Positions 956 through 26,585 of a stretch of 35,233 nucleotides of DNA are shown here, piece by piece (position 1 is the first letter of the stretch; each line of letters begins with the position of its first letter). Below the pieces are notes generated by a model. That model saw only the letters and a program-made list of their open reading frames with translations. It had not been told where the DNA came from and did no database searches. Origin of the DNA: a virus; the IMG/VR virus record IMGVR_UViG_3300024518_000966, positions 1 to 35,233 of that record. One strand, 5' to 3'. A program made the position numbers and the translations under genes.

Positions 956-1531
956 AAATTACTCCTTATATGTATCCTCCCTAGGGGAATAATATTAACT
1001 GGTTTTAACCTTTTAAGTAATGCTAGACGATAGCTAGCGTAAATGGTTATGAATAAGATGTTGCATATAGTGACTAAGAGAGTAATATTCTAAATGTGGG
1101 TTGTGTCATCACTAAAACACTAGGCAGATATGACCCACAACAGCGACCTGATAGCTGTCCATCATCAGATGCGAAAACACCAGAGTAGGTAGTGCTGAGA
1201 TGCTACTGGAGAATGACTAGGATGATCATCTTCCGACCACAAGGAAGACATACTGGAGGGTTCATAAGAAAGAATGTAGAGATTATTGCATCCTGTTTTT
1301 AAGGCTCAATGAATCTTGCATCGGTAACAGCTTATGCGGAATTAAGTGGATTACTTAGAGGGTGAGGACAGACCGGCTCTCAGTGATAGGAAACACAGAT
1401 TCATAAGTGAAGGCAACTTCAGTACGCAGATTGAGTAACCATTAATAACAATCTGATTAATACCGAGAATAGACCATGTTAGCAACTGTAGGCTAGAGAC
1501 AAACAAACAAGATAATTTAGACGCACATTCA
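956..1531. other. Long noncoding region with RNA-like hairpins
   Basis: About 575 bases between leftward terS and the rightward block contain no convincing gene. Local inverted repeats include 1100-1109 with 1130-1141 (GTTGTG..TCAT with ATGA..CACAAC, two-base bulge) and 1229-1234 with 1243-1248 (TCTTCC, GGAAGA). A weak rightward promoter can be drawn at 1061-1088 (TTGCAT, 16-bp spacer, TAATAT). Divergent promoters for terS and the rightward block, or an untranslated RNA, are plausible. Nothing here matches an RNA family I recognise. Confidence 0.4.
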
Positions 1532-2796: not shown

Positions 2797-2876
2797 ACTA
2801 ACTGATGAGACCTTGATAGGTCGAAAATTTAAAATAGGTATCAGTAATGACCTTACCCAGAAATGGGATTCTTAGT
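2797..2876 (+). ncRNA. Hammerhead ribozyme HHR1 (type I)
   Basis: The conserved core is complete: CTGATGA (2802-2808), stem II GACC/GGTC (2809-2812 with 2819-2822) with six-base loop TTGATA, and GAAA (2823-2826). Stem I is ACTAA (2797-2801) paired with TTAGT (2872-2876). Stem III is AATTT (2826-2830) with GGATT (2866-2870), including two G-U pairs. Inside it AGGT/ACCT (2836-2853) and CCCA, GAAA, TGGG (2856-2867) are possible branch hairpins; the second competes with the G-U pairs. The cleavage triplet is TTC, giving a predicted cut between 2871 and 2872. The 3' product would begin the mRNA of the gene at 3064. Confidence 0.8.
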
Positions 2877-3298: not shown

Positions 3299-3402
3299 TT
3301 GATCTCTAATCCTGAGCATGATGAAAAAAGGCTCAATTCACCATGATCATATTCGTTCTGAGTGTGATCATTGGGAATTATCCCAACTCAAAATATGGAG
3401 GT
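3299..3402 (+). promoter_or_regulatory. Structured mRNA leader, copy 2
   Basis: This is a homologue of 1901-2002. It has TGAGC..GCTCA (3313-3335), ATGATCA/TGATCAT (3343-3349 with 3365-3371), and TGGGA, loop ATTA, TCCCA (3372-3385), then ATATGGAGG at 3393-3401. Against copy 1, three pairs of the middle stem change on both sides and pairing is kept (T-A to A-T, A-T to G-C, G-C to A-T). Confidence 0.7.
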
Positions 3403-3409
3403 AAATATT

Positions 3410-3989: not shown

Positions 3990-4071
3990 ACCAACTGAAG
4001 AGTCTTTGAGATAAGACGAAAGAAATTAAAGAGGGGCATCCCTCGCCTTTGAGAAAAGGTTTTCTCTTGGT
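3990..4071 (+). ncRNA. Hammerhead ribozyme HHR2 (type I)
   Basis: This is the cleanest of the three. The core is CTGAAGA (3995-4001) with stem II GTCTT/AAGAC (4002-4006 with 4013-4017), six-base loop TGAGAT, and GAAA (4018-4021). Stem I is ACCAA (3990-3994) with TTGGT (4067-4071), 5 bp. Stem III is AGAAA (4021-4025) with TTTCT (4061-4065), 5 bp. Two branch hairpins lie inside stem III: GAGGG, GCAT, CCCTC (4031-4044) and CCTTT, GAGA, AAAGG (4046-4059). The cleavage triplet is CTC, giving a predicted cut between 4066 and 4067. A terminator-like hairpin starts six bases after the cut and moxR follows. Confidence 0.85.
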
Positions 4072-4146: not shown

Positions 4147-5208
4147 ATGACACCAAGTCAAGCATTGTTGGCGTGTTATCACGTCATTAAAGGCGGTAAT
4201 TCGCCTTACCTTATCGGATCAGTCGGTATTGGGAAAAGTGCGGTTGGAAACCTACTTGCTCAAAGACTTGCTGATGAAGATAAACTTAAATTGGTTCGAG
4301 ATGTAATCAATCCAAATGAAAAGCAGTTTTCTGTCATAGACCTACGACTATCATTATTAGAGTCTCATGATCTAGGTGGACTGCCATTTTTGGATGCACA
4401 ATTTCGTCAGAAAAGAGCCTTTCTTGGAAACCTACCTGTAGGTGGAAAAGGATTGCTCATGCTAGATGAATTTGCACAGGCACATCAAAGTATCCAGACC
4501 ATTGCATCACAATTGCTTTATGAAAGACGCATTGGGGAATACAAACTCCCTGATGGCTGGAATATATTGTGCAGTAGCAACAGAATGTCTGATCGTGCTG
4601 GTGCTAATAAGATTCCTACTCAAACCATTGGTAGAGTTTCAATGATCGATTTCCAACACGATTTCGATGATTGGGAGGCGTGGGCAATTGAAAATGATGT
4701 ACTTGCCTCAGTTATCAGCTTTCTTTCATTTAGGAGAGATGGACTACTGGACTGGTCACCTAAGATTGATACTCCGCAAGCTACACCTAGAACATGGGTG
4801 AGGTTGTCGGATACTCTCAAGACAGGTATTCCTGATGATTTAAGAATAGAATTCTTTACGATGGATGTTGGACAGAAATGGGCAATTGAGTTTGATAAAT
4901 TTTTGCTACTATCTGAAGACCTTCCAAATATTGATGATATTTTGAAAAATCCGAGTAAGGCTGAACTGCCAAAAGGGGCGGGTCTAGATTATGCTGTTAC
5001 ATTAGCATTAATGACTACCATTGCCACAGCAAATAAGAAAAAAGTTTATGACTATTTTGATAGTGCTTTAACTTATTTGGAAAGGTATCGACAGGTCGAA
5101 TTTTCGATCTTGTTTGTCCGAATGGTAACTGCCAAAAGAAATGAACTCAGAGAGACTCAAACTTTCACTGAATTCTCAGTTAAGCACAGCGATATAACTA
5201 TCCTGTAG
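4147..5208 (+). CDS. MoxR-type AAA+ ATPase
   Basis: A 353-residue protein of the MoxR branch of AAA+ ATPases, which use ATP to remodel partner proteins and usually work with a vWA-domain protein. The Walker A motif is GSVGIGKS at residues 24-31, starting unusually close to the N-terminus. Walker B is GLLMLDEFAQA near residue 105, and the sensor 1-like LCSSNR is near 143. An AAA+ lid with TPRTWVRLSD is at about 217-226. ATG 4147 is supported by ATATGGAGG 8 bases upstream. It stands first in a three-gene set with an unknown protein (5434) and a metallopeptidase-vWA protein (6485). Hammerhead ribozyme 2 and a weak terminator precede it, and ribozyme 3 separates it from the next gene, so its dosage relative to its partners may be set at the RNA level. 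Function in the phage is unknown. Confidence 0.8.
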   Translation: MTPSQALLACYHVIKGGNSPYLIGSVGIGKSAVGNLLAQRLADEDKLKLVRDVINPNEKQFSVIDLRLSLLESHDLGGLPFLDAQFRQKRAFLGNLPVGGKGLLMLDEFAQAHQSIQTIASQLLYERRIGEYKLPDGWNILCSSNRMSDRAGANKIPTQTIGRVSMIDFQHDFDDWEAWAIENDVLASVISFLSFRRDGLLDWSPKIDTPQATPRTWVRLSDTLKTGIPDDLRIEFFTMDVGQKWAIEFDKFLLLSEDLPNIDDILKNPSKAELPKGAGLDYAVTLALMTTIATANKKKVYDYFDSALTYLERYRQVEFSILFVRMVTAKRNELRETQTFTEFSVKHSDITIL

Positions 5209-5270
5209 TGTTGGCATTAACTGCAAATACTACAGGTGCGTAAAAGTACCTGTAGTGTTGGCATTAACTG
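5202..5270 (+). promoter_or_regulatory. Duplicated leader segment forming two exclusive hairpins
   Basis: A 22-bp sequence is repeated exactly at 5202-5223 and 5249-5270. ACTACAGG (5229-5236) can pair with the CCTGTAGT of the first copy (5202-5209) or, with one extra pair, with the second (5229-5237 with 5248-5256, loop of 10). The two hairpins cannot coexist. The second repeat contains TGGC (5259-5262), which can also pair with the stem I strand GCCA (5274-5277) of hammerhead 3. The first copy overlaps the moxR stop codon. Confidence 0.6.
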
Positions 5271-5273
5271 TAA

Positions 5274-5381
5274 GCCACTGAAGATTCCCATTAGGGTGGG
5301 ATGAAACGGATGTGGTGTATGGGGTTGGAAAATATTTTACTAGTATTATATTTTCCAATCTCTGCGTTACAACTGTATGGT
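5274..5381 (+). ncRNA. Hammerhead ribozyme HHR3 (type I, long stem III)
   Basis: The core is CTGAAGA (5278-5284) with stem II TCCCA/TGGGA (5286-5290 with 5297-5301), six-base loop TTAGGG, and GAAA (5303-5306). The closing 10.1/11.1 pair is T-T rather than G-C. Stem I is GCCA (5274-5277) with TGGT (5378-5381). Stem III is long: 5306-5317 pairs with 5365-5376 with one mismatch and several G-U pairs, then 5323-5335 with 5348-5360 forms a 13-bp apical hairpin. The cleavage triplet is GTA, giving a predicted cut between 5377 and 5378, which is 56 bases before the next start codon. Confidence 0.7.
5330..5346 (+). repeat. AT element AAATATTTTACTAGTAT, copy 2
   Basis: Second copy of the recurrent element. 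It sits in the apical hairpin of hammerhead 3 stem III. Confidence 0.6.
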
Positions 5382-5433
5382 GATACCCTTAAAAAGAGTA
5401 TCTTATTTAACTCAAATATGGAGGTAAATTATT

Positions 5434-6492
5434 ATGAGTAAAAACAAAAAACCAAAGAACGATACTACCAGTGTACTGCACCAAAAAGCTGTGATGATTA
5501 AACTCAAAACAGGGCTTTGGAGTGGTATAAAAAGTAGTAAAAAAGCACGACAGATTCTAGCAGAGCAATCTGATGGTGGGTCTGAAGGTGCTTTCAATGG
5601 TCAACTTAATCTTACAGGTGACAAAAGTAGAGGGAATAATCCTAATACTTATTTTCGTGGAATCCTTACCAAGTTTAAGAACGAATCATTTCATCCGTTA
5701 ACCCATGCTTGGGAAGATGGAAAAGATGGTTGGAGACTATGTTCTGTACACAAGCAATACCAAGTGCTGGATTCCTTCAACAAGGCTAAGATTGAATGGG
5801 AAAAGGAGGTTGATGGTTTCGTCAAAAGACTCCCCAAAATCAAGGCTATGTTTGCAAAAAGTGACTTAGGTATTTTCTATGATGAGTCATTCTATCCGCA
5901 AGGATATAGCTACTACGATGAAAATGAAAAGCTTGTGAAAGTGACTGCCGATGAGGTTCTTCGCTCTAAGTTTAAATTTGATTTAGACACAAGAGAAGTT
6001 GAAAAGGTTGTCAATGTCAAAGACATCCGCCTCGAAGTATCTGAGGAGATGAAGACAAGGCTAGTCAATGATACGAAAGATCGTTTAACAAGAAACCTAA
6101 TTGCTGTTGGAAAAAACGCAGTGGATGAGGTAGTCGATAATATCGAAAACCTCACCACAAGAATGCGAGAATACAACAGTGTAAAAGGCAAAAAGAGAAG
6201 TGGAACTTTCCACAAAACTAATGTGCCGAAGATTGAAAAATCTTTGTCTGTATTAGCTGATCTTAATGCTGAGATTCTTGGTAATGATCCGACAATCAGC
6301 AAGGTGCATAAATCACTTACTTCTAAAGTCAATAAGCTTAAAGATGAAAAGTATTTCTCTGCTTTAAGAGATGATACTTTTGAGGCTCAAGAAGAAAGAG
6401 ATCAAGTGTCAGATAGTTTAGATGATTCTATCACTGACCTAAAGGGTGACTTTTTAAATAAAGCATTCGGAAGGAGTGATAACAATGACTAA
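5434..6492 (+). CDS. Unknown middle protein of the MoxR-vWA module (352 aa)
   Basis: No family is recognised. It is a soluble, Lys- and Asp-rich protein. Residues about 60-170 contain an aromatic globular part (TYFRGILTKFKNESFHPLT, FYDESFYPQGYSYYDE). Residues 190-350 look largely helical or coiled-coil, ending in an acidic segment. ATG 5434 follows ATATGGAGG by 9 bases. The gene overlaps the metallopeptidase-vWA gene by 8 bases (ATGACTAA), so the two are translationally coupled. Its fixed place between the ATPase and the vWA partner suggests an adaptor or substrate of the complex; this is inference from context. Confidence 0.65.
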   Translation: MSKNKKPKNDTTSVLHQKAVMIKLKTGLWSGIKSSKKARQILAEQSDGGSEGAFNGQLNLTGDKSRGNNPNTYFRGILTKFKNESFHPLTHAWEDGKDGWRLCSVHKQYQVLDSFNKAKIEWEKEVDGFVKRLPKIKAMFAKSDLGIFYDESFYPQGYSYYDENEKLVKVTADEVLRSKFKFDLDTREVEKVVNVKDIRLEVSEEMKTRLVNDTKDRLTRNLIAVGKNAVDEVVDNIENLTTRMREYNSVKGKKRSGTFHKTNVPKIEKSLSVLADLNAEILGNDPTISKVHKSLTSKVNKLKDEKYFSALRDDTFEAQEERDQVSDSLDDSITDLKGDFLNKAFGRSDNND

Positions 6493-7909
6493 ATTAGAAA
6501 TGACTGATGCAATGAAAAAGGTTATTAAGGCAAGAGTATTACTCATGCAAGAAAGTCAAGGCATTGCATCTATGCTTATAGGATTAGACCTTGTTGAAGT
6601 ATCATCCGAAAAGTGTCCAACGATGGCTACCGATGGAAAAAGAATATTCTTTTCCGAATGGGTATTAACAATACCCATTGGTGAATTGAAAACTGTTCTA
6701 TTCCATGAAGGCTGTCATGTCATTTGGGAACATCCCATCCGTAGGCAAGAGCGTGATCCATACTGGTTCAATATTTGTTGCGATATAGTAATAAATAATT
6801 GGATCAAGTATGACTTGAGAATGACTCTTCCATCGGATGGTGTTTGGGATTGGAAACATAGAAACAAAACTCCCGAAGATGTCTATCGTACTATCATGTC
6901 TGATCAAGACGAAAAGCAATCATTGCTTGACGAATTATTAGACCTCACTGGTGGTGCGAATGACTCGGATGAATCCGATGCTAATGATGGTAGTGATGGT
7001 GAAGGTGACGGCTCTGATGACGGAAAATCTGATACTAGTAAAATATTTTCAGAGGCTTCTGGCGCACCTACTCGTGACGAAAGACCTGTCCTATCAGGAG
7101 AGGTTTGGGATTTGCAAGATGACGATGGAAAGAAGGCGAACAAAGATGAGGCAAAGGAATTTGCTAAAGTTGTTCGCTCTACTGCATCCTTAAATGCAAC
7201 ACTTGAAAAAGCTATCGGAAACTCAAGCATGGGTGATGCTATGGTAAGTGCGATAAACGCTAACCTAGAATCCGAAGTCGATTGGGTGGAACTATTGAGA
7301 GACTTTCAACTGTCTTCTATTGCCGATGACCCTACATGGTCAAGGCTCAACAAGAGGCATCAATGGAGAGGCATCAATCTTCCTTCCAAGCAGAAGTCGG
7401 CTCATGGTGGTGAAGTTGCCTATATCATGGACACCAGTGGAAGTGTTTCACAACGCGAACTCGATCAGTTTGCTACTGAGGGCGAGGCAATCGCTCTTGA
7501 CTGTGGCATTGAAAGGATCAGAGTTTGTTACTGTGATACTGATTATCACGATACTAGAAATCCTGAAGAGCGCAGAACTTTTGTCAGGAAAACTGGTAGC
7601 AGTGATAGTCTAACTGGTGATGAAGAGTGGTGGCAAATTACAGAGATTGCTCAAGGCGAAGAATTAAAACTCTATCGCATTGGTGGCGGTGGAACTAGCT
7701 TTAATCCACCTTTCAATCTTTTTAATGACCACACCGATGATGCACAAGACTGTGTTGCCATCATCTACTTCACTGATGGAGATGGAAAAGTCAGTGCTGA
7801 GGTCGAACCTGATGTGCCTGTTTTGTGGGCAGTCTATGATGAGCGTGGCATGAGATCGTTCAATCCACCTTTCGGTGAAAAAGTGAGGATAACTTTTGAT
7901 AACTATTAA
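6485..7909 (+). CDS. DUF2201-like metallopeptidase with C-terminal vWA-like domain
   Basis: The 474-residue protein has two parts. Residues about 60-115 contain the zinc-binding motif HEGCH (74-78), then 'WFNICCDIVINNWI', the pattern of the putative metallopeptidase domain of DUF2201 proteins. An acidic Asp/Ser/Gly-rich linker lies near 155-195. From about residue 305 a vWA-like domain shows a MIDAS motif DTSGS (about 316-320), a Gly-rich loop GGGGTSF and FTDGDG near the end. Proteins of this build are usually encoded beside a MoxR ATPase, as here. ATG 6485 is preferred over GTG 6476 because AAGGAG (6470-6475) is correctly spaced only from the former. It may cut or load a metal centre or target protein; the substrate is unknown. 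One AT element lies inside the linker-coding part (7032-7048). Confidence 0.8.
   Translation: MTKLEMTDAMKKVIKARVLLMQESQGIASMLIGLDLVEVSSEKCPTMATDGKRIFFSEWVLTIPIGELKTVLFHEGCHVIWEHPIRRQERDPYWFNICCDIVINNWIKYDLRMTLPSDGVWDWKHRNKTPEDVYRTIMSDQDEKQSLLDELLDLTGGANDSDESDANDGSDGEGDGSDDGKSDTSKIFSEASGAPTRDERPVLSGEVWDLQDDDGKKANKDEAKEFAKVVRSTASLNATLEKAIGNSSMGDAMVSAINANLESEVDWVELLRDFQLSSIADDPTWSRLNKRHQWRGINLPSKQKSAHGGEVAYIMDTSGSVSQRELDQFATEGEAIALDCGIERIRVCYCDTDYHDTRNPEERRTFVRKTGSSDSLTGDEEWWQITEIAQGEELKLYRIGGGGTSFNPPFNLFNDHTDDAQDCVAIIYFTDGDGKVSAEVEPDVPVLWAVYDERGMRSFNPPFGEKVRITFDNY
7032..7048 (-). repeat. AT element, copy 3 (inside vWA gene)
   Basis: ATACTAGTAAAATATTT on the + strand, the exact complement of the copy at 5330-5346. 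It is the only clear copy within a coding sequence, in the acidic linker of the metallopeptidase-vWA gene. Confidence 0.55.
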
Positions 7910-8007: not shown

Positions 8008-8093
8008 TTAATAGCACCTTTTGGTGTTATTAATGGGATTCTCCCAAACAAGTCTGACAATCCTGTCAGCAATTAATCATTTAACTATGGAGG
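8008..8093 (+). promoter_or_regulatory. Structured mRNA leader, copy 4 of the TGGGA type
   Basis: An 11-bp stem (8008-8018 with 8023-8033, one G-U, TTTT loop) directly abuts TGGGA, loop TTC, TCCCA (8034-8046). A further hairpin CTGACA/TGTCAG (about 8053-8069) lies before the ribosome site ATGGAGG (8087-8093). Confidence 0.65.
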
Positions 8094-11726: not shown

Positions 11727-11750
11727 AAAATACTCCTTCATTATCCGTAT

Positions 11751-11823
11751 ACTTACTAAGTAAATACTTACTAGTTAGATACTTACTAATATTAAAAACT
11801 TACTAAGTATCTACTTACTAAAA
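11751..11823. repeat. ACTTAsTAAGT iteron/operator cluster B
   Basis: Five copies of the ACTTACTAAGT element, exact or with 2-3 changes, start at 11751, 11766, 11781, 11798 and 11813, so spacing is 15, 15, 17 and 15 bp. The two perfect copies are at 11751-11761 and 11798-11808. The cluster occupies the gap between the helicase start and the stop of the 84-residue gene. It is probably an operator array or a replication origin; the regular half-turn phase argues for cooperative protein binding. Confidence 0.75.
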
Positions 11824-17411: not shown

Positions 17412-20400
17412 CTAGTTAAAAAATCTAACAGGTAATTCAGACTGCTCTCTTAACTCAGGAACATATGCAAGCCTTTTTGATTTTTGTAACTGCATTTGTT
17501 GAATCATTTCTTTTTTAACACTAGGACTCAAATCTGAGTTGAGGATTCTATCTCGTCTGTCTCTCCAACTTACTAACCAACGATTTAATGCTAGAACTTG
17601 TGACCTTGTTTTTGCAATTCCTTTTCTGTTTGCCATTAATGCCTTAGCCTCTTTAATTCTGTTCTGCTTTTTCAAAGCGGATAATGTTTGCACATACATA
17701 TTGCTTTCTTTTCTTAGGTCATAGAACTGTTGTTCTAACCCTCTGCCAAATTCAGTCTGAGTAAAAAATCTTTTTAACACAGGCATTTGATCTATTCTTG
17801 GAGATAAGAAATCTCTATCGGTAACTTGCCTGAGCGTTGCATCTATCATCGTTAATAAATAACCACCTAGAGTGCCTCCATACCCTTTCATAATGTATTC
17901 CAGTTTAATAGGGGATATGTTTAGCTGTTCACCGACAAGCCTTGCTAATTCGTTAGTGCTATAACGAGATTGTGCTGATGGTTCTAGACCTTCTCTCATG
18001 TAATAAGGAATGATTTCAGAGCCTGTATAGGTAGACCTATTGTTGACCACCTCTACAATGGGTTTAATTGCTTGAAAGCCCAATGGGTCAATTTTAAGAG
18101 TATTTTTTGCTTGTCTTCTATAACTTTTAACCAAGTCAGGCAAGTCTCCTCCCATCATTACATCAATAAACCTTTCAGGAATAACTTTAAATATTGTGCC
18201 AACCTCAAAAGGTATGGGGATTTTGAGTGCGGGGATTCCTTTCCCAAGTGGAATAACCCAATTATCATCCCTCTCTTCTACAGAAATTTTTTGATATTCC
18301 TCATCGTCACTGACCAAAGCATAGTATATTGCTGTCAAAAACATAAGCATTCCACCACGAGTCAGCATCTTCATTTGTATCTGTCTTGCTATTTCTGATG
18401 ATGTTCCTTCAAGCTGACTACTAACTGCTGAATATTGACCAATTCCACCCCTATAAAGCAAATCAAGACCCTGTATCCTTGCATTTAGAAATGGGATAGC
18501 GGCAGTGATAACTCTGAACAATGGGTCTGCGCCACGCCTACTAAAGTTGATGATCTCTAAAGCTTGATATGCAGCCTCTCTTTGACTGCCTGTTTGTTGA
18601 TAGATAACATCATAAACACCTTTACGAGTAGCACCATCAGACTTTCCTGTTTGTTCACCAAGATAATCCCATACCTTTAAGAATTGATCTTTGGCATTCA
18701 TTGATCCATCAACACCAATACCCTGTTTTCTCATTTCTTTTTGAATAAACTTAACAATATCCATTTCATCGTTTGAGAAATCATATCCACCCAAAACTCC
18801 CCATCTTTCTAATTCAGTAAAGTCTGCGTTAAAGTTTTTAAATGTATCTATAAATGGCTTAAAGTCTGCACCACTTGTCACAAAAGCTGACATTGTGTCA
18901 CGCATCATATTAACCAACATAAATCCGGGATCACGAGTCACCATATCTCTAAGGAAACTTGCAGGCATAGCCAAGAACTTCATTATTCCACTCAGGTCAT
19001 TCATGCCTAATGCTTGCAGTCCATGAATAATTTCTGGATCAGCAACTCTATAAAAAAGTCTTTCGCCATTTATATAAACAGGAATAACATTGATGCCTTT
19101 AGCCTCATTCATATCTGTAATTAATTCTGCCATTCCTGCTGCTTCAAATGTAGTCAGCATTTTTGCTAAACCAGAATTTTTCATGGCTGCCGCTACAATT
19201 GATAGAGCATTTCTTGATATTGCCTCAAGTGGTGCAGGCTCTATTGCTGACTCACTACCTTTAATCTTTATACCCAATGGATTTCCTGCAATAAATCCCC
19301 CTGCAATTTTCGGACCACCGATTGTATCGTCTTGCATTTTTCTATAGAAAGGATAGTAATCTGCATTATCTTTCCATATTTGAGCAGTACCTCTTGTGTC
19401 TAAACCTAGCATTTCAGCTACTTCTATAAGTTGATCATAAGCCAAATTAGACAAACCACTTCTTGTAAAGTCTGTACTTGTATCAAGAATCATAGATATT
19501 AATTCTTTTTCACTCTTGGTTTCACTTAGGATTCCCATTTCAACAGCATAATCAATAAGTGCATTATTCCATTCTTGATAATTATTATATACTTCAACAA
19601 CCTCTGGATACTGTGCTTCTATTTCTTTTGCTTTATCTACTACTTCTTGTGTTACAGGTGTTGGTATTCCGTTTGCATCTAACCTAGTTCCTCTTTGAGC
19701 AATGGCATAAATTTTAAACAAAGATTCTAAATCAATTTTTGCATTTTTATAAAGAGGTGCAAATATTTCTAATAACCCTCCTTTAGCAAAATCTGCAACA
19801 TAAGTGCCACCCTCTTTAATTGTTGGCACTCCAAGCTTAACCATACCTGAAAAAATTCCTCTCACTCTTTCAGAAAATCTAAGGTCTGCCATTGCATTAG
19901 TATCTATTGAGTTTAAAAGAATCTTAGCTTTCTCGCTTTTTTCTCCAGCCTCAAGTAGTTTTTTCTCTACCAAACTTAATTTATCAATTAATGCAACTCT
20001 AGCGTTTTGAAAAAATGTACTTGCTGTTTCTTTTGTTTCAGCCCAATCAATCATGCTTGAACCAAAGTCTTTATCTAAAGCATTTACACCTCCGACATCT
20101 TCAGCAGCTTGTTCAAAACCTGCTGGTGTTTTTGATTGAGTTCTCCTGTCTGTTGGAACATCTCTATTAACTTGATCTAGTATGTTATCAATAGATTTAC
20201 CTTCAGCCATTTGAAATGCTACAGCTATAGCCATAGGATCAGCTTTTGTATTAATTCTAGGTATGTGGTTACGAGAACCTTGTTCTGCTTTACGAACAGC
20301 CCTTGCTTGCCATTCTTCTGGAGAAACTCTTCCGAGTATGCCTTGGTCGTTTAACTGTCCATATAAGGCTGATCGCCTACTATAAATAGGCAGTTCACTT

Positions 20401-23400
20401 ACAGGCTCTACTTCGTGTCTTCTGGCAAATCGTCTGTAGTTTTCAAAGGCTGGGATGTAAAGATCACTGATGATGGCTCGTTGTAAATCGGATGATTTGA
20501 TGAGACCTGCTTTATTCCCAAGGAGGCGTAATGCTCTGCTAGTTCCTTTTGTGTAAGGGGCTTTTTTGTATTGGATGAGTTCTGATTCTTGTCCATAGGT
20601 TTCTAATTGATAATCTGTTTCATAAGTTGCTTGTTGTATTATATCAAGAAACTCATCGATGTCACTTGTCTCATAGTTTTCTTTACCAAATGATCTTGGG
20701 TCAATTAACATAACTGAGTTCTGTTCACTAGGCAATACAGTAAAGTTAATATCTTCTCTGTCTCTAGTTAAATCACTAAAATTACTCATTAAAGATTCTA
20801 ATTCTTCAGGAGAAAACTTAGAATTATCTGGCTTTCTTAACAACAACCCTGTGTGAACACCCTTTGATGTTGGTCTACTAATAATAGCTGAGTCTTGTAA
20901 GAAAGCATCGGTTAACAATCCAGCAATACCTTCGACTGTAGCCTTATCAGCACCCGGAAGTTTTAATACAATATTAGGAGTAAGATTATTTTCAAATGTA
21001 CCTGCTGATATATCTATTGTATGTGGTATACCCAACCTTCTTAATACTCTTAACTGATTGCCTGATGTTACATCCTTTAACAGATTTTCCATATAGTTAA
21101 GATGTTCATCAAAGGTAAGATTTAAATCAGCAGGCAAGTAGCCACGATCTACACCCATTTTAAATTCAAATGCAACCGATGGTGCTAATGCAGTAATTGC
21201 ATTAACAATATCTTCTGATGCACTACTATCAAAAGGATTAGTAGTTCTATTGCTTTTATAACTTGCAGAATGAATAAATATTCCTGATATCGAATGATCC
21301 ATATCAAATAGACCTTCTTCTTTCATTTTATCTATTTTTGCAATTTCTTTTTTAGAAGATTGTATGGCTGAATCTACCGAGCCTTCATTTGCAACAGTAG
21401 ACTTACCATATCTTTCATGCGCCCATAAAATAGCTTGTACTGCTGATGGACCTTCAAACTGCATCTCGATACCATTTTGTTGGTATAGCTCTGAAGCAAG
21501 AAGACTTATTATTCCCTGAGCCATTCTATATTCAACTTCAGTTGGTGATTTAGTATCAAACCCAAGCTTAGTCAACATATGTCTATCTATAACAGACCAA
21601 GGATTAAATTGATTATTAGCATCAGAAAGAATTTGTTGAGCATAAAATGCAGTTTTCATACCACTGCCCTTTTTATTCATCTGTCCTGTTGTATAAATAT
21701 TAGCAAGCATCTTTATCTTATCTCCAGATAAAAAATACTCTGTTTGTTTAGCTGTTAATGCTGCTTTTAACTTAGATATATTTGATTTATTAAAATCAGT
21801 AATATTATTTTTATTTTTTACCTCTCTTGCTGTAATCATTACGCCCAATGCTGCTTTAAGGTTTTTTTCAGGAGTAGCTTGTGCGCTAGTAACACCAAAT
21901 ACTTTTGAAAATTCATTCATATTGGCATCACCAACAATGGTAGGAATTTTAACAGCCCATCGTTTATACCATTGAGAGTCTAATCCTCTGTTAATAGAGT
22001 CTTGTATATCTGCCATTAAGCTGTCATAGCTAGGAAAAGAATGTTTTTTTGTTGACCTTGGTGATAATTTTTTAAACAAATCTGAAAATTGTTTAGAAGT
22101 AATAGTGTCATTCTTTGTATAAAGATCGAGCAATAAATTTTCAACCTCTCCATCATTTAATATACTTTGAGGAATAATTCCTGATGTACTTAATGGACTT
22201 CTATCAGTAGGTGTATCTATAGATTGATCAACTATTGACTCAGCAACAGCAATAGTTCTTTCCAACTCTGCTCGTTCCAAATTACTATAAATAGGATTTC
22301 TAAAGCCTGTTCTTGATATAGGATCATTTTCTCCAGCTAATCTTGCTTTCATTGTGGCTAAAGTTATTTTACCCTGATCTCCTTTCAACATATTAAGCCC
22401 ACCGCCATACCAATCATCAACCATCCCTTTAGCATCTGCCAAGCTATTCCCAGCATCACCGACTTCTCCATCCATAACATGGGCAATGTTCCAACCATAA
22501 CCAGCCTCATCTGGGCGCGATATTATGTGACCCTTATAGTAATAACTACCAACTTCAGGATCATAAGTTGCTGTTGGTTTGAATCCTGTAGCAACCCTAT
22601 CAGTAGGTTGGTCTGTGAGTGTATACATTTCTTTATAAGGAGGTATGCTGCTATTTAACTTACCAGTATTTATAAGCTCTTTTATATAGCTAACCCCATC
22701 TTCTTTTGCTTCAGTAAAACTATCTCCAGATAAACCTATATCGCCATATCCTTTTGCTCTTGGGTCTGTAATGACCATTTGAAACTTATCACCATAAACA
22801 GTCTCTTTAACAATCTCTACATCATACCCATACAGCTTGCCTCCCTGAATGCTATAAAATTCATCAGGTATTTTTTTAAACTTTCCTATTGGCTCTTCTA
22901 TTCTCCTACTAACTCTATCAGTAGGTTGGAATAAATCTCTTTGAACACCACCAAGCTTTTTAATTAAAGCTGCTTTTTGTTTATTAATCTGTTTAATTTT
23001 TTTAGCCGACTGTTTCATCAAGCGATCACCAGCTATACTGTCAGGCTTGTAGTTACTTTCATCTCCAACCTTTTTATCGGCTCTTCCTCTTTGGTAATTA
23101 GCAATATTCTGATCATATGCCTTATTTAAAATTGATAATCGTTCTATATTTTTATTACGATCTGTAGAAGCATCCCCAATTGGTGGGTCAATCCTTTCTA
23201 AAAAGTTTGGATCACGCTCTAATGCTTTATCCAATTTATGCAATGACCTAATTTTTCCTCTTTGTCTTGCACCAATTTTTCCACTGCTTATGTCTGTCAA
23301 AACAGAAGTAGGTGTTGTAAATCCATTGCTAATAGTTCTAGAAAGAGTTGTGAAAAACTGAAGTATTTTTTCAATAATACCTTTTGGTTTAGGTGCTTTT

Positions 23401-26400
23401 ATAAAGTCTGGATTAGCACGATAGTAAGCAAACATTTCTGCAATTAACTCTTCTTCAAAAGCATTGTCTCCTAAATGTGAGTAATCAGCCTTAAAGTCTT
23501 TAATTTGTTTTGTACTAAAAGAACGATGAGCAGTCTCTTTAAGAAGACGAACCTCTTTATCTGTTAATAAACCAAGATCAATTAAAGCATGAACTGCCTC
23601 ATGATCAATGGTCATAGCAAAAGAGTCTTTTAACTCTTGTTCTGATAAAGAACCATCAGGATCAGATTTTTCTAAAGAGGCTAATATCGTTTTCATTGGT
23701 CTGTCGTAAGTTCCTATAGCACCTGATTCTTCAAAATAATAACGCCCTCTTTCATCTTGCTTAACTCTAATAGAATCTTTAAGCGCCCTCTCAAACCTTA
23801 AAGAAATTTGTTTAAGCCCTAATGCATCCAGTCTTTCACGCATCTCTTCAAGTAACTTTCCATACTTCTCTGGATTATCAGGCGGTGGCAATAGCTTTAA
23901 TTCTTGATTAGATATTATTTCAGTATCAATATCTTGTTGTCTTGAAATAATGTCTTCTATTTCTTCATCTTGTAACTCTGTAGTGTTACGAATCCTTTCT
24001 CTTAATTCTTCCAGTGTTTCGTTTAGACCATTCATTTTTCTAGCTTGCTGTAAATCAAAGTCTTGAGTCATTTGTAGGCGATTCTTTGTCTTAATGGCTC
24101 TACCACTTTCAATTAAATCTTTTCTTAATTTTTGTATTTCTTTTGAAGTAAGGTCTTTTCCTGTTTCAGAATTTTTAACCTGTTCTTTAATTTTTTTGGT
24201 TGTTATGTTCTGACCAATATTTGCTTTATACAAATCATCTATTTGCTTTGCTGTGTATGGTCTAGGGGTATAGTCAGGCAATGACTGTTGATCAACATTA
24301 AATCGAGGAAGGGTTGCTATCTTTGCTATCAATAACTCTTTTTGCCCTTTAGTCATTTGACTATAATTATCAGTACCTGTTATGGTTGTTGCAAAATATT
24401 TAAAAGCGTCTGAGTTTAATTCTACTTTTATATTCTTTTTAGATAATGCTTCTTTAAGTGCTGATAAAGTAATATCAACATCACCTTTTTTATTTCTTCT
24501 AACTCCGATATTTTCATTTAATAAAGCTGATATTTGAAAAGTAACGGAAGCTTTTTCTTTTAATAAAGCATCAAAGTCAGCAGGTTTTAATATTTTTTTA
24601 GCTTCAACTAATGTATAAAAATTCTTTTTATCAATGCCTTTTTTATTAACTTTGTCATAAAACAAACTTAATTGGCTGGTAACATCTTCTAATCTCGCTG
24701 CATCTTCTGGAGTAACAGGCTCAAATTGACCAATGATGGGCACTTCTTTGCCATCCTTGCCTATTCTGGTTTTTTGTTTATAAATGGGGAATATATTTGG
24801 GATTTGATCAAGCTGTTCTCTTATGGTGTTAAGGTCAGCCTCGGTCATTGCGTCTACTTGAGGACCAAGCAGTTCTCGCAACATATTATCTTTCATAATA
24901 TTTGACATATTATAAAATTGTTCTCTGTCAATAACTGACTTCTCTTTCTCTGTCAGTTCTGTTTCTTGTTTGTATTGTTCTTTTCTAGCGGTAGATATTC
25001 TAGAATCATAGTTCGCTAAAACTTTTGCATCAAAAGTATTTTGCAAAGGATCAAAAAGCTTTTGTCCAATAAGATATGCAGTTCCATTACCTTCAAGACC
25101 ATTGATCTTTAAAGCATTGTTAACAAGAGTAGATACCCACACACTTCTTACATTTTTATCTAGTTGTAACGCAGTATTTCTAGCCTCTTCATCGGTAGCA
25201 AATGTTCCTTTAGTAAAGCCTGACTTTGCTCCAACAACATTATAAGTTCCGTCTTCGTTAAAGGTAATGTTATGAGTTTCTAGAATAGGAACCTCTCTAT
25301 CGTCAGCAGGAGATGGTCCTTTTCTCTTTCCCATTTCAATTTTTAATGCATCAAATGCATTTACATATGTTTCATATAGCGGTTTTGTCTTAGGATCACC
25401 TTTAAGTTCATTTATATTTGTCTGATAGACAGAAGCAACTTGTTCTAATTCACTGTCTGATAAGGCAGCTATATCTGTGCCTTTAAAATCTCCATAAATA
25501 ACTTTTTGGAAAGGAAGATATTTATCATCTATTGCTTGTTGTTCTGGAGATATAACTTGAGATGGCAATACAACAGAGCCATCAGCTACTGCACGATCAT
25601 AATCTTCTTTATATTGTTCAAACCTTTTATCTTCTTGATTCTGTGCTTCCTGTGCCTGCTGCCTAACATAAGAATTACCCAGTCCTCTTTTGCCCATAAC
25701 ACCACGAAAAACCAAGTCAGATAATGCACCAACTGCACCACCTACTGTTAAGTCATCAAACAGACTTTCACCTAATGGAACTGTATCGCTATAAATACCT
25801 AATGCAACAGCATCTTGAGCAATCCCAGCTAATGCTTCTTGGGCTGCTTCTTTTGAACCAGTTGCTAAAGCAAACCTAATTCTTTGTGGTATCTTATGAT
25901 ACATGCCCGGACCTTTAAGTATCCCTTTAAGCAAATGTTGGACAGTGATGACCTCAGACGCTCCTATAGCGCCACCTAATAGCTCTGATACAATTTCTTG
26001 ACCTTTGCCTACCTCTTCACCCATTGACCTCGCATACTCGATATTTTGGGCTTGCTCAGATATACCAACAGAAACAGCTAATGGAAGTGTTGCTTTGGTT
26101 GTAAGAGAGCCTAATGCTTTTTGTGCTGCTTTTGCTTGTGCGCCTCCAGCTAATACTTTTCCACCAAGCCCACTAATTTTAGTAGCAGCAGCGCCCGGAA
26201 CAAAGAAAGCACCAAATGAACCCAGACCCCCACCTAATTTAGCTGAAAACGCATCTTCATAACCTTCACCTATGCCTAATGCACTTTCATTTAATCCTAT
26301 TTGTAAGTCTTTAAAAAGATTAACGGCAGCACTGTCATTTCCAGAATCAAATAAACTTGATAAACCCTCACCTGCTGATAAAAAAGTAGAACCAAAACCT

Positions 26401-26585
26401 CTAGGTATACCTTTAGCAACTTCTCCTACATGACCTAAAATAGTTCTTTCTGTAGGAGCATCGTATGCAGTATAGGTATCAGGATATACCTTTGCTAAGT
26501 TATTCTGAATATCAATTAACTCTTCCTTAGATGCATTATCTGGAATGTCTAATTGCCTTCCGTCTGGTAAACGATAGAGTGCCAT
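17412..26585 (-). CDS. Giant polyvalent internal virion/ejection protein with zincin protease domain
   Basis: A 3057-residue multidomain protein at the end of the virion operon, where T7-like phages keep ejection proteins. The N-terminus (YRLPDGRQLDIPDNASKEEL) is the small domain that opens many large polyvalent phage proteins. Residues about 110-230 are Gly/Ala-rich and hydrophobic, possibly membrane-active. A zincin site HEAVH lies at about 995-999, with a downstream EEELIAEMFAYY near 1048. Several small beta domains occur between 1140 and 1460, separated by PTDR-type linkers near 1138, 1220, 1327, 1459 and 2143. The C-terminus (about 2530-3057) carries 'NMMRDTMSAFVTSG', a hydrophobic stretch near 2752 and the features of an LPD38-type domain. 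Probable role: a capsid-internal protein ejected into the cell, with self-processing or host-targeted proteolysis. There is no clear ribosome site; it starts one base after the previous stop, so coupling is likely. Confidence 0.75.
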   Translation of the reverse strand: MALYRLPDGRQLDIPDNASKEELIDIQNNLAKVYPDTYTAYDAPTERTILGHVGEVAKGIPRGFGSTFLSAGEGLSSLFDSGNDSAAVNLFKDLQIGLNESALGIGEGYEDAFSAKLGGGLGSFGAFFVPGAAATKISGLGGKVLAGGAQAKAAQKALGSLTTKATLPLAVSVGISEQAQNIEYARSMGEEVGKGQEIVSELLGGAIGASEVITVQHLLKGILKGPGMYHKIPQRIRFALATGSKEAAQEALAGIAQDAVALGIYSDTVPLGESLFDDLTVGGAVGALSDLVFRGVMGKRGLGNSYVRQQAQEAQNQEDKRFEQYKEDYDRAVADGSVVLPSQVISPEQQAIDDKYLPFQKVIYGDFKGTDIAALSDSELEQVASVYQTNINELKGDPKTKPLYETYVNAFDALKIEMGKRKGPSPADDREVPILETHNITFNEDGTYNVVGAKSGFTKGTFATDEEARNTALQLDKNVRSVWVSTLVNNALKINGLEGNGTAYLIGQKLFDPLQNTFDAKVLANYDSRISTARKEQYKQETELTEKEKSVIDREQFYNMSNIMKDNMLRELLGPQVDAMTEADLNTIREQLDQIPNIFPIYKQKTRIGKDGKEVPIIGQFEPVTPEDAARLEDVTSQLSLFYDKVNKKGIDKKNFYTLVEAKKILKPADFDALLKEKASVTFQISALLNENIGVRRNKKGDVDITLSALKEALSKKNIKVELNSDAFKYFATTITGTDNYSQMTKGQKELLIAKIATLPRFNVDQQSLPDYTPRPYTAKQIDDLYKANIGQNITTKKIKEQVKNSETGKDLTSKEIQKLRKDLIESGRAIKTKNRLQMTQDFDLQQARKMNGLNETLEELRERIRNTTELQDEEIEDIISRQQDIDTEIISNQELKLLPPPDNPEKYGKLLEEMRERLDALGLKQISLRFERALKDSIRVKQDERGRYYFEESGAIGTYDRPMKTILASLEKSDPDGSLSEQELKDSFAMTIDHEAVHALIDLGLLTDKEVRLLKETAHRSFSTKQIKDFKADYSHLGDNAFEEELIAEMFAYYRANPDFIKAPKPKGIIEKILQFFTTLSRTISNGFTTPTSVLTDISSGKIGARQRGKIRSLHKLDKALERDPNFLERIDPPIGDASTDRNKNIERLSILNKAYDQNIANYQRGRADKKVGDESNYKPDSIAGDRLMKQSAKKIKQINKQKAALIKKLGGVQRDLFQPTDRVSRRIEEPIGKFKKIPDEFYSIQGGKLYGYDVEIVKETVYGDKFQMVITDPRAKGYGDIGLSGDSFTEAKEDGVSYIKELINTGKLNSSIPPYKEMYTLTDQPTDRVATGFKPTATYDPEVGSYYYKGHIISRPDEAGYGWNIAHVMDGEVGDAGNSLADAKGMVDDWYGGGLNMLKGDQGKITLATMKARLAGENDPISRTGFRNPIYSNLERAELERTIAVAESIVDQSIDTPTDRSPLSTSGIIPQSILNDGEVENLLLDLYTKNDTITSKQFSDLFKKLSPRSTKKHSFPSYDSLMADIQDSINRGLDSQWYKRWAVKIPTIVGDANMNEFSKVFGVTSAQATPEKNLKAALGVMITAREVKNKNNITDFNKSNISKLKAALTAKQTEYFLSGDKIKMLANIYTTGQMNKKGSGMKTAFYAQQILSDANNQFNPWSVIDRHMLTKLGFDTKSPTEVEYRMAQGIISLLASELYQQNGIEMQFEGPSAVQAILWAHERYGKSTVANEGSVDSAIQSSKKEIAKIDKMKEEGLFDMDHSISGIFIHSASYKSNRTTNPFDSSASEDIVNAITALAPSVAFEFKMGVDRGYLPADLNLTFDEHLNYMENLLKDVTSGNQLRVLRRLGIPHTIDISAGTFENNLTPNIVLKLPGADKATVEGIAGLLTDAFLQDSAIISRPTSKGVHTGLLLRKPDNSKFSPEELESLMSNFSDLTRDREDINFTVLPSEQNSVMLIDPRSFGKENYETSDIDEFLDIIQQATYETDYQLETYGQESELIQYKKAPYTKGTSRALRLLGNKAGLIKSSDLQRAIISDLYIPAFENYRRFARRHEVEPVSELPIYSRRSALYGQLNDQGILGRVSPEEWQARAVRKAEQGSRNHIPRINTKADPMAIAVAFQMAEGKSIDNILDQVNRDVPTDRRTQSKTPAGFEQAAEDVGGVNALDKDFGSSMIDWAETKETASTFFQNARVALIDKLSLVEKKLLEAGEKSEKAKILLNSIDTNAMADLRFSERVRGIFSGMVKLGVPTIKEGGTYVADFAKGGLLEIFAPLYKNAKIDLESLFKIYAIAQRGTRLDANGIPTPVTQEVVDKAKEIEAQYPEVVEVYNNYQEWNNALIDYAVEMGILSETKSEKELISMILDTSTDFTRSGLSNLAYDQLIEVAEMLGLDTRGTAQIWKDNADYYPFYRKMQDDTIGGPKIAGGFIAGNPLGIKIKGSESAIEPAPLEAISRNALSIVAAAMKNSGLAKMLTTFEAAGMAELITDMNEAKGINVIPVYINGERLFYRVADPEIIHGLQALGMNDLSGIMKFLAMPASFLRDMVTRDPGFMLVNMMRDTMSAFVTSGADFKPFIDTFKNFNADFTELERWGVLGGYDFSNDEMDIVKFIQKEMRKQGIGVDGSMNAKDQFLKVWDYLGEQTGKSDGATRKGVYDVIYQQTGSQREAAYQALEIINFSRRGADPLFRVITAAIPFLNARIQGLDLLYRGGIGQYSAVSSQLEGTSSEIARQIQMKMLTRGGMLMFLTAIYYALVSDDEEYQKISVEERDDNWVIPLGKGIPALKIPIPFEVGTIFKVIPERFIDVMMGGDLPDLVKSYRRQAKNTLKIDPLGFQAIKPIVEVVNNRSTYTGSEIIPYYMREGLEPSAQSRYSTNELARLVGEQLNISPIKLEYIMKGYGGTLGGYLLTMIDATLRQVTDRDFLSPRIDQMPVLKRFFTQTEFGRGLEQQFYDLRKESNMYVQTLSALKKQNRIKEAKALMANRKGIAKTRSQVLALNRWLVSWRDRRDRILNSDLSPSVKKEMIQQMQLQKSKRLAYVPELREQSELPVRFFN

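Follow-up and report, generated by a model that had tools for sequence, protein, structure and literature searches.

Clusters of hammerhead ribozymes that flank single genes or short gene blocks have been described in prophages, and a role in mRNA splitting has been proposed for them (Perreault et al. 2011, PMC3088659); three arrays, those of C. scindens, A. caulinodans and A. tumefaciens, were cleaved in vitro. The methods of the same paper state that mispairs at position 10.1/11.1 were rejected unless activity had been measured, while its section 8, citing earlier work, presents a U-U at this position as a natural variant that supports more cleavage than other mispairs, and as a surprising one because this pair is the most conserved after A15.1-U16.1. 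The hammerhead of phage Bcep176 also has a variant core (A6C) and prefers Mn2+ over Mg2+, and the metal ligands listed for hammerheads in the corresponding paper are the A9 phosphate, the G10.1 nitrogen and the G12 oxygen (PMC7151607). The theta (HDV-like) ribozymes of gut phages (PMC10879173) are likewise small, spread through phage genomes and proposed to make RNA ends. The role of prokaryotic hammerheads is described as an open question in PMC6155905.

The locus analysed here lies in a stretch of 35,233 nucleotides whose source record is a virus (hereafter the window), and centers on a hammerhead between a moxR gene and its two partner genes. Like the Perreault arrays (PMC3088659), the window carries several (three) phage hammerheads on one strand that flank genes. 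In those arrays, however, the flanked genes vary and 10.1/11.1 mispairs were filtered unless active, whereas the moxR family has a constant operon, a ribozyme position kept across hammerhead types, U·U as the commonest state and an AT hairpin at the cut. The natural U10.1-U11.1 variant in that paper is the same mismatch at the same place; there it is surprising, while in this phage family it is the commonest state and is tied to A at position 17. The Bcep176 change affects A6, as opposed to a change that removes G10.1, the listed nitrogen ligand in PMC7151607, and the theta ribozymes of PMC10879173 are HDV-like and adjoin tRNAs, in contrast to hammerheads situated between operon genes. In four Schitoviridae (N4-like) phages (L001, L003, L005 and L007) the same MoxR ATPase gene precedes a gene of the DUF2201/VWA type, with 25-32% identity in the moxR alignment; there, unlike in the window, moxR and its downstream neighbour overlap or are almost contiguous, and the type I descriptor applied to them returned no hammerhead match.

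Phage hammerhead clusters, mRNA splitting as their role, the U·U mismatch and each of the three permutations have already been published (PMC3088659, PMC6155905), while the family-wide U·U/A17 subtype, the exchange of permutations at one junction and the hairpin cassette appear to be new here. The full-text literature searched, which holds few subscription papers, contained no paper that deals with this phage family, links U·U to A17 or describes the hairpin cassette. We consider it probable that positions 5274-5381 form a genuine type I hammerhead, one of a set punctuating the moxR operon in an uncultivated phage family, through which the message would cut itself and each gene would obtain ends of its own.

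A predicted ribozyme between moxR and its partner genes

The features of the region, given in window coordinates, are as follows.

2797-2876, plus strand: HHR1, type I hammerhead with a UUC triplet, predicted cut after 2871 (descriptor, sub-threshold Rfam match)
3990-4071, plus strand: HHR2, type I hammerhead with a CUC triplet, predicted cut after 4066, upstream of moxR (descriptor, sub-threshold Rfam match)
4147-5208, plus strand: MoxR-like AAA ATPase gene (phrog_1297, E 6e-67; 48% to L008, 40% to L009), upstream of HHR3
5202-5226 and 5249-5273, plus strand: two 25-nt direct repeats that could mask stem I (repeat search, folding)
5274-5381, plus strand: HHR3, type I hammerhead ribozyme with U·U at 10.1/11.1 and A17 (descriptor, fold, syntenic relatives)
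5274-5277, plus strand: HHR3 stem I 5' strand GCCA, pairing with UGGU at 5378-5381 (sequence, fold)
5278-5284, plus strand: HHR3 core C3-A9, CUGAAGA (sequence)
5285 and 5302, plus strand: HHR3 U10.1·U11.1 closing stem II (sequence, fold; family-wide state)
5286-5290/5297-5301, plus strand: HHR3 stem II (sequence, MFE fold)
5303-5306, plus strand: HHR3 core G12 A13 A14 (GAA, 5303-5305) and A15.1 (sequence)
5306-5376, plus strand: HHR3 stem III, extended, whose distal part includes the AT palindrome (MFE fold)
5328-5355, no strand assigned: AT palindrome in HHR3, 26 of 28 letters matching, one of nine window sites
5382-5402, plus strand: hairpin 4 nt from where the partner-gene mRNA is predicted to start with a 5'-OH (MFE)
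5434-6492, plus strand: partner gene with no assigned function, downstream of HHR3 (same-place gene 34% in L008, 30% in L091)
6476-7909, plus strand: DUF2201 metallopeptidase/VWA partner gene (PF13203, PF09967; 41% to L091)

HHR3 contains the core C3UGANGA9 ... G12A13A14 of a type I hammerhead, together with the A15.1-U16.1 pair (A5306-U5376) and A5377 as H17. The core bases place the predicted cut, after a GUA triplet, between 5377 and 5378, exactly where the initial annotation had put it, and the reading of this stretch as a type I hammerhead with that triplet is borne out by bases, fold, descriptor and syntenic ribozymes in relatives. Folded alone, positions 5274-5381 reach a minimum free energy (MFE) of -37.4 kcal/mol (z -4.16; equally good folds in none of 200 shuffles), with three stems around the core, of 4 bp, 5 bp plus an inner U-G, and an interrupted 28 bp, stem I being open. 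Stem III had initially been described as 12 bp followed by 13 bp, which is roughly right in extent, although the MFE fold divides it into 4 bp, an A·A mismatch (5310/5372), 9 bp, a 1-nt bulge (5320) and 15 bp. The Watson-Crick pair at 10.1-11.1 is replaced in HHR3 by U5285·U5302; such a pair is highly conserved but stands outside the core consensus in PMC7151607, and, as U·U is a published variant that supports cleavage (PMC3088659), the assignment to type I was made independently of it. Stem I has just 4 bp and no visible extension, and loop II (UUAGGG) lacks the UGANAU-like loop found in most type I relatives, so that the stem I/II tertiary contact which speeds natural hammerheads is not evident.

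A descriptor that tolerates a 10.1/11.1 mismatch found exactly three hammerhead cores in the window, HHR1, HHR2 and HHR3, all on the plus strand, as opposed to an average of 0.017 cores per window in 60 dinucleotide shuffles of the whole window, in which a stem II of at least 5 bp never occurred. Rfam hammerhead families returned no match at gathering score in the window, nor in 12 relatives (139 kb); HHR1 and HHR2 gave sub-threshold matches to Hammerhead_3 only (E 0.058 and 0.38), while HHR3 was unmatched both at gathering score and at E<=5. An alternative type III reading of HHR3, in which CUGUA and UGGC of the upstream repeat could pair with core strands, was rejected by eye owing to four intervening extra bases; it is retained as a hint of a past permutation.

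The two 25-nt repeats raise the possibility that HHR3 acts conditionally: the upstream stretch 5202-5273 would pair with the stem I strand and the core and hold the ribozyme off until a protein, the ribosome ending moxR or a downstream event freed it, so that moxR and its partners were uncoupled only at some stage. In RNAfold, the probability of stem I falls from 0.6-0.8 for the ribozyme alone to 0.0 when the repeats are included, the masked fold is better by 4.7 kcal/mol (5202-5381) or 3.9 kcal/mol (5202-5445), and the first repeat contains the moxR stop codon. Thermodynamic folding, however, ignores tertiary contacts and co-transcriptional order, and in most relatives the spacer between moxR and the ribozyme contains an AT hairpin in place of these repeats; we regard conditional action as unlikely. 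The RNAfold-favoured masking, the short stem I and the atypical loop II may render HHR3 slower than its neighbours. A look-alike of the repeat hairpin (TGCAAATACYACAGGT; window 5202-5273) occurs downstream of a hammerhead in L008 (5965-6020).

Several other elements were observed in the window. Repeat blocks of the ACTTAGTAAGTAT type, both direct and inverted, at 1-115 and 11740-11820 flank the hammerhead-bearing 11.7 kb, and similar repeats were seen by eye in L008 (3000-3150) and L009 (3220-3350). A recurrent leader element precedes four gene starts (1949-2005, 2340-2396, 3345-3403 and 8018-8050), in the order of a hairpin with TTA..TAA ends, TGGGA-loop-TCCCA, and a ATATGGAGG-type ribosome site; by eye, the hairpin arms vary among copies with pairing kept. 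A 3057-aa protein (17412-26585) matches only at its C-terminal part, to the unannotated PHROGs phrog_9854 and phrog_18222.

Hammerheads around moxR in the phage family

Alignment of moxR with distant phages returned two near relatives, L008 (48%) and L009 (40-41%), both of which carry hammerheads in the moxR region. An alignment of the moxR proteins of the window, L008 and L009 was then used to find relatives, and the best 80 of 92 confirmed loci (146 pattern matches) were combined with the window into a survey set of 81 sequences (837 kb; 20 clusters at 90%). Across this set the all-type descriptor gave 225 matches on the moxR strand and 4 on the opposite strand, and at a score of at least 14 the real sequences held 137 type III and 70 type I hammerheads, compared with 0 type III and 12 type I in five whole-set shuffles. 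Type II matches (10) were close to shuffle level (22 in five sets, 4.4 per set) and were rejected; all later counts are restricted to types I and III with a score of at least 13. On this basis the best 80 of the 92 moxR loci and the window contain 212 hammerheads, 119 of them distinct.

These ribozymes keep to the gaps between genes, only 5 of the 212 lying within an open reading frame of at least 75 aa, with a median distance of 59 nt past the preceding stop codon. A hammerhead is present downstream of moxR in 65 of the 78 loci with room for one (14 of 20 clusters), upstream in 49 of 79 loci (15 of 20 clusters), and on at least one side in 17 of 20 clusters. Numbers per locus range from three in the window to as many as six of types I and III in relatives, for example in L091, where six occupy successive operon gaps. 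At the junction after moxR most loci carry a type III hammerhead, while L008 and its near copies, L105, L107 and the window carry type I, and the gene 3' of this spacer is homologous (34% in L008, 30% in L091). Across moxR genes that have diverged to about 40% identity, the ribozymes stay in position while their sequence and permutation vary, which points to selection for a cut between these genes. These syntenic ribozymes also support the initial proposal that HHR3 would split the moxR message from its partner genes.

A descriptor match after moxR was absent from 13 of 78 loci; by cluster, six of 20 were without one. The spacer itself is almost absent in L110/L116 and L154, and L110 and L154 showed no hammerhead by eye; in L143/L144 and L142 the type III fold is complete but includes a single additional base within or next to the core, a configuration seen in 0 of 200 shuffles, and L138 has, by eye, a C in place of G12. 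Clusters L149-L153 and L163, with no descriptor match after moxR, were assigned to neither outcome. By eye, the first 120 nt past moxR in L149 (3324-3443) may form a type I hammerhead in which a large loop of stem II contains an AT element; this arrangement failed the descriptor and was left out of the counts.

A wider scan, from which 80 of 586 confirmed loci were retained, provided 78 distant moxR loci (L010-L087, 727 kb) with 8 descriptor matches, 7 of them on the moxR strand, indicating that the array belongs to this phage family and not to moxR genes generally. Ordinary G-C/GUC hammerhead groups were observed in two distant moxR phages, L025 (4530-5890, plus strand) and L013 (145-969, plus strand). 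Single-protein scans with the VWA and MoxR proteins found no close relative of the window, and the bases of HHR3 itself are consequently not aligned to orthologues. At 60% identity or above, no cultivated relative was found for four window proteins or for the family moxR of L091.

The AT hairpin beside the predicted cut

The AT palindrome GAAAATATTTTACYRGTAAAATATTTTC occurs with at least 20 of 28 letters matching at nine window sites (4078, 5328, 7023, 8661, 11336, 16353, 16959, 17347 and 30899) against a shuffle mean of 0.0, a comparison that is partly circular as the consensus derives from window copies. Two copies lie inside genes, at 7023 (VWA) and 11336 (primase), and the palindrome may also be a DNA binding site; 28 bases identical to the 11336 copy are found at 16078 in L145. 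The location of one copy in HHR3 stem III, as first annotated, agrees with the fold, and the element recurs in stem III of other type I hammerheads (L114, L115, L121 and L122).

In relatives, the 12-base core UUUACYRGUAAA was searched with one mismatch allowed. It occurs within 80 nt upstream of the hammerhead in 59 of 88 distinct type III contexts and downstream in 1 of 88, as compared to 2.4% of random 80-nt windows, and inside the hammerhead in 6 of 53 type I contexts; HHR3 is not among these six because it has two mismatches to the short core. The end of the element is 21-36 nt from the cut in the type III cases and 14 nt from it in the six type I stem III cases, while the core of the HHR3 copy ends 30 nt before the predicted cut. 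Of the AT-bearing upstream stretches, 53 of 54 fold with z below -2; RNAalifold returned no consensus structure for 19 aligned hairpin spacers, probably because the alignment shifts the hairpin arms. In types I and III alike the hairpin lies 5' of the scissile bond, and the upstream message would therefore carry it at its 3' end after cleavage.

The functional unit could conversely be the AT hairpin, for example as a host RNase III site or as an element recognised by a DNA- or RNA-binding protein of the phage, with the neighbouring hammerhead serving as a redundant or subsidiary cutter. In T7, RNase III cuts at long hairpins between cistrons, and the palindrome also occurs away from ribozymes and inside genes (7023, 11336). 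Yet 47 of 53 type I contexts have no internal AT element, so that ribozymes are kept where the hairpin is absent; we regard this explanation as decidedly unlikely.

The U·U closing pair and the proposed use of the cut

The U·U of HHR3 is the commonest 10.1/11.1 state in the family, being found in 68 of 119 distinct ribozymes, with G-C in 42. Position 17 is A in 64 of the 68 distinct U·U ribozymes and in 12 of the 42 with G-C; the remaining U·U ribozymes have C17 (three) or U17 (one). After removal of redundancy at 85%, A17 is present in 14 of 14 U·U and 3 of 15 G-C ribozymes (Fisher p 1e-5, ancestry ignored).

A blind pattern in which only the core, U/U and an AAAA loop were fixed matched 55 viral stretches, many of them close copies. 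All three stem II pairs were formed in 40 of these, and full hammerheads, with stems I and III and a valid triplet, were present in 39 of the 40 versus 0 of the 15 others. The control patterns gave full hammerheads in 0 of 41 stretches with A/A and in 11 of 15 with G/C, and H17, which the pattern left free, was A in 38 of 39 U/U compared to 2 of 11 G/C hammerheads. Furthermore, stem II covariation over the 55 U/U stretches (24 distinct) reached 0.586 versus 0.182 when shuffled (0 of 500), exceeding every slid control. Eight of the contigs with the U/U pattern showed no match to the family proteins compared, and the U·U subtype may accordingly extend beyond this phage family. A scan of genome contigs with the same pattern returned at least 118 stretches; all three stem pairs were present in five, two of which were descriptor-positive, against 1 of 28 stretches with none of the pairs. 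Among the genome-contig matches listed, only L269 resembles a real U·U hammerhead: a type III form at 1328-1384 (minus strand) on a contig from an Aliivibrio bin, which may be of phage origin and hint at a host.

Judged from these sequences, U·U is not decay but a subtype used in more than half of the lineage's distinct ribozymes. That HHR3 is a decaying copy, with its U·U, short stem I and A17 marking activity loss and its stem kept merely as an mRNA hairpin, is very improbable: the U·U does fall at the most conserved stem II pair according to PMC3088659, stem I has 4 bp and loop II is not typical, but U·U with A17 is the commonest state of the 119 distinct ribozymes, their cores are intact and their stems covary, and U·U is the best-tolerated mismatch in section 8 of that report. 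The weak activity initially deduced from the U-U is, for these same reasons of frequency, conserved and covarying stems and published tolerance, not well supported. Since the G10.1 nitrogen is a listed ligand in PMC7151607, a natural U at 10.1 should be without one metal ligand. Compared with the G-C/C17 form, U·U/A17 probably cleaves more slowly or differs in its dependence on metals.

According to the mechanism that we propose, the polycistronic message would fold during its synthesis and cut itself between 5377 and 5378. The AT hairpin, here the outer part of stem III, would remain on the moxR message as a stable structure at its 3' end, which would bear a 2',3'-cyclic phosphate, while the partner-gene message would begin with a 5'-OH four nucleotides ahead of a hairpin and 56 nt upstream of its start codon. 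As the cut would leave transcription running, each gene would gain separate ends with no need for a terminator or an additional promoter. A broader reading, which we advance tentatively as a possibility somewhat short of even, is that AT hairpin and hammerhead together constitute a termination-free 3'-end former, with types I and III exchanged at one junction, which cuts 3' of a protective hairpin and converts an operon into single-gene mRNAs, U10.1·U11.1/A17 being a subtype that works without the G10.1 metal site.

The moxR operon offers a clean test system for the role of prokaryotic hammerheads. As the U·U/A17 subtype is without the guanine whose nitrogen is named as a metal ligand in PMC7151607, natural sequences can be used to test the importance of the A9/G10.1 metal site. 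Phage hammerheads may also be undercounted, given that Rfam gathering scores and 10.1/11.1-mispair filters would miss ribozymes of this kind. If the termination-free 3'-end former is real, a phage operon would become a row of single-gene mRNAs while the polymerase reads on.
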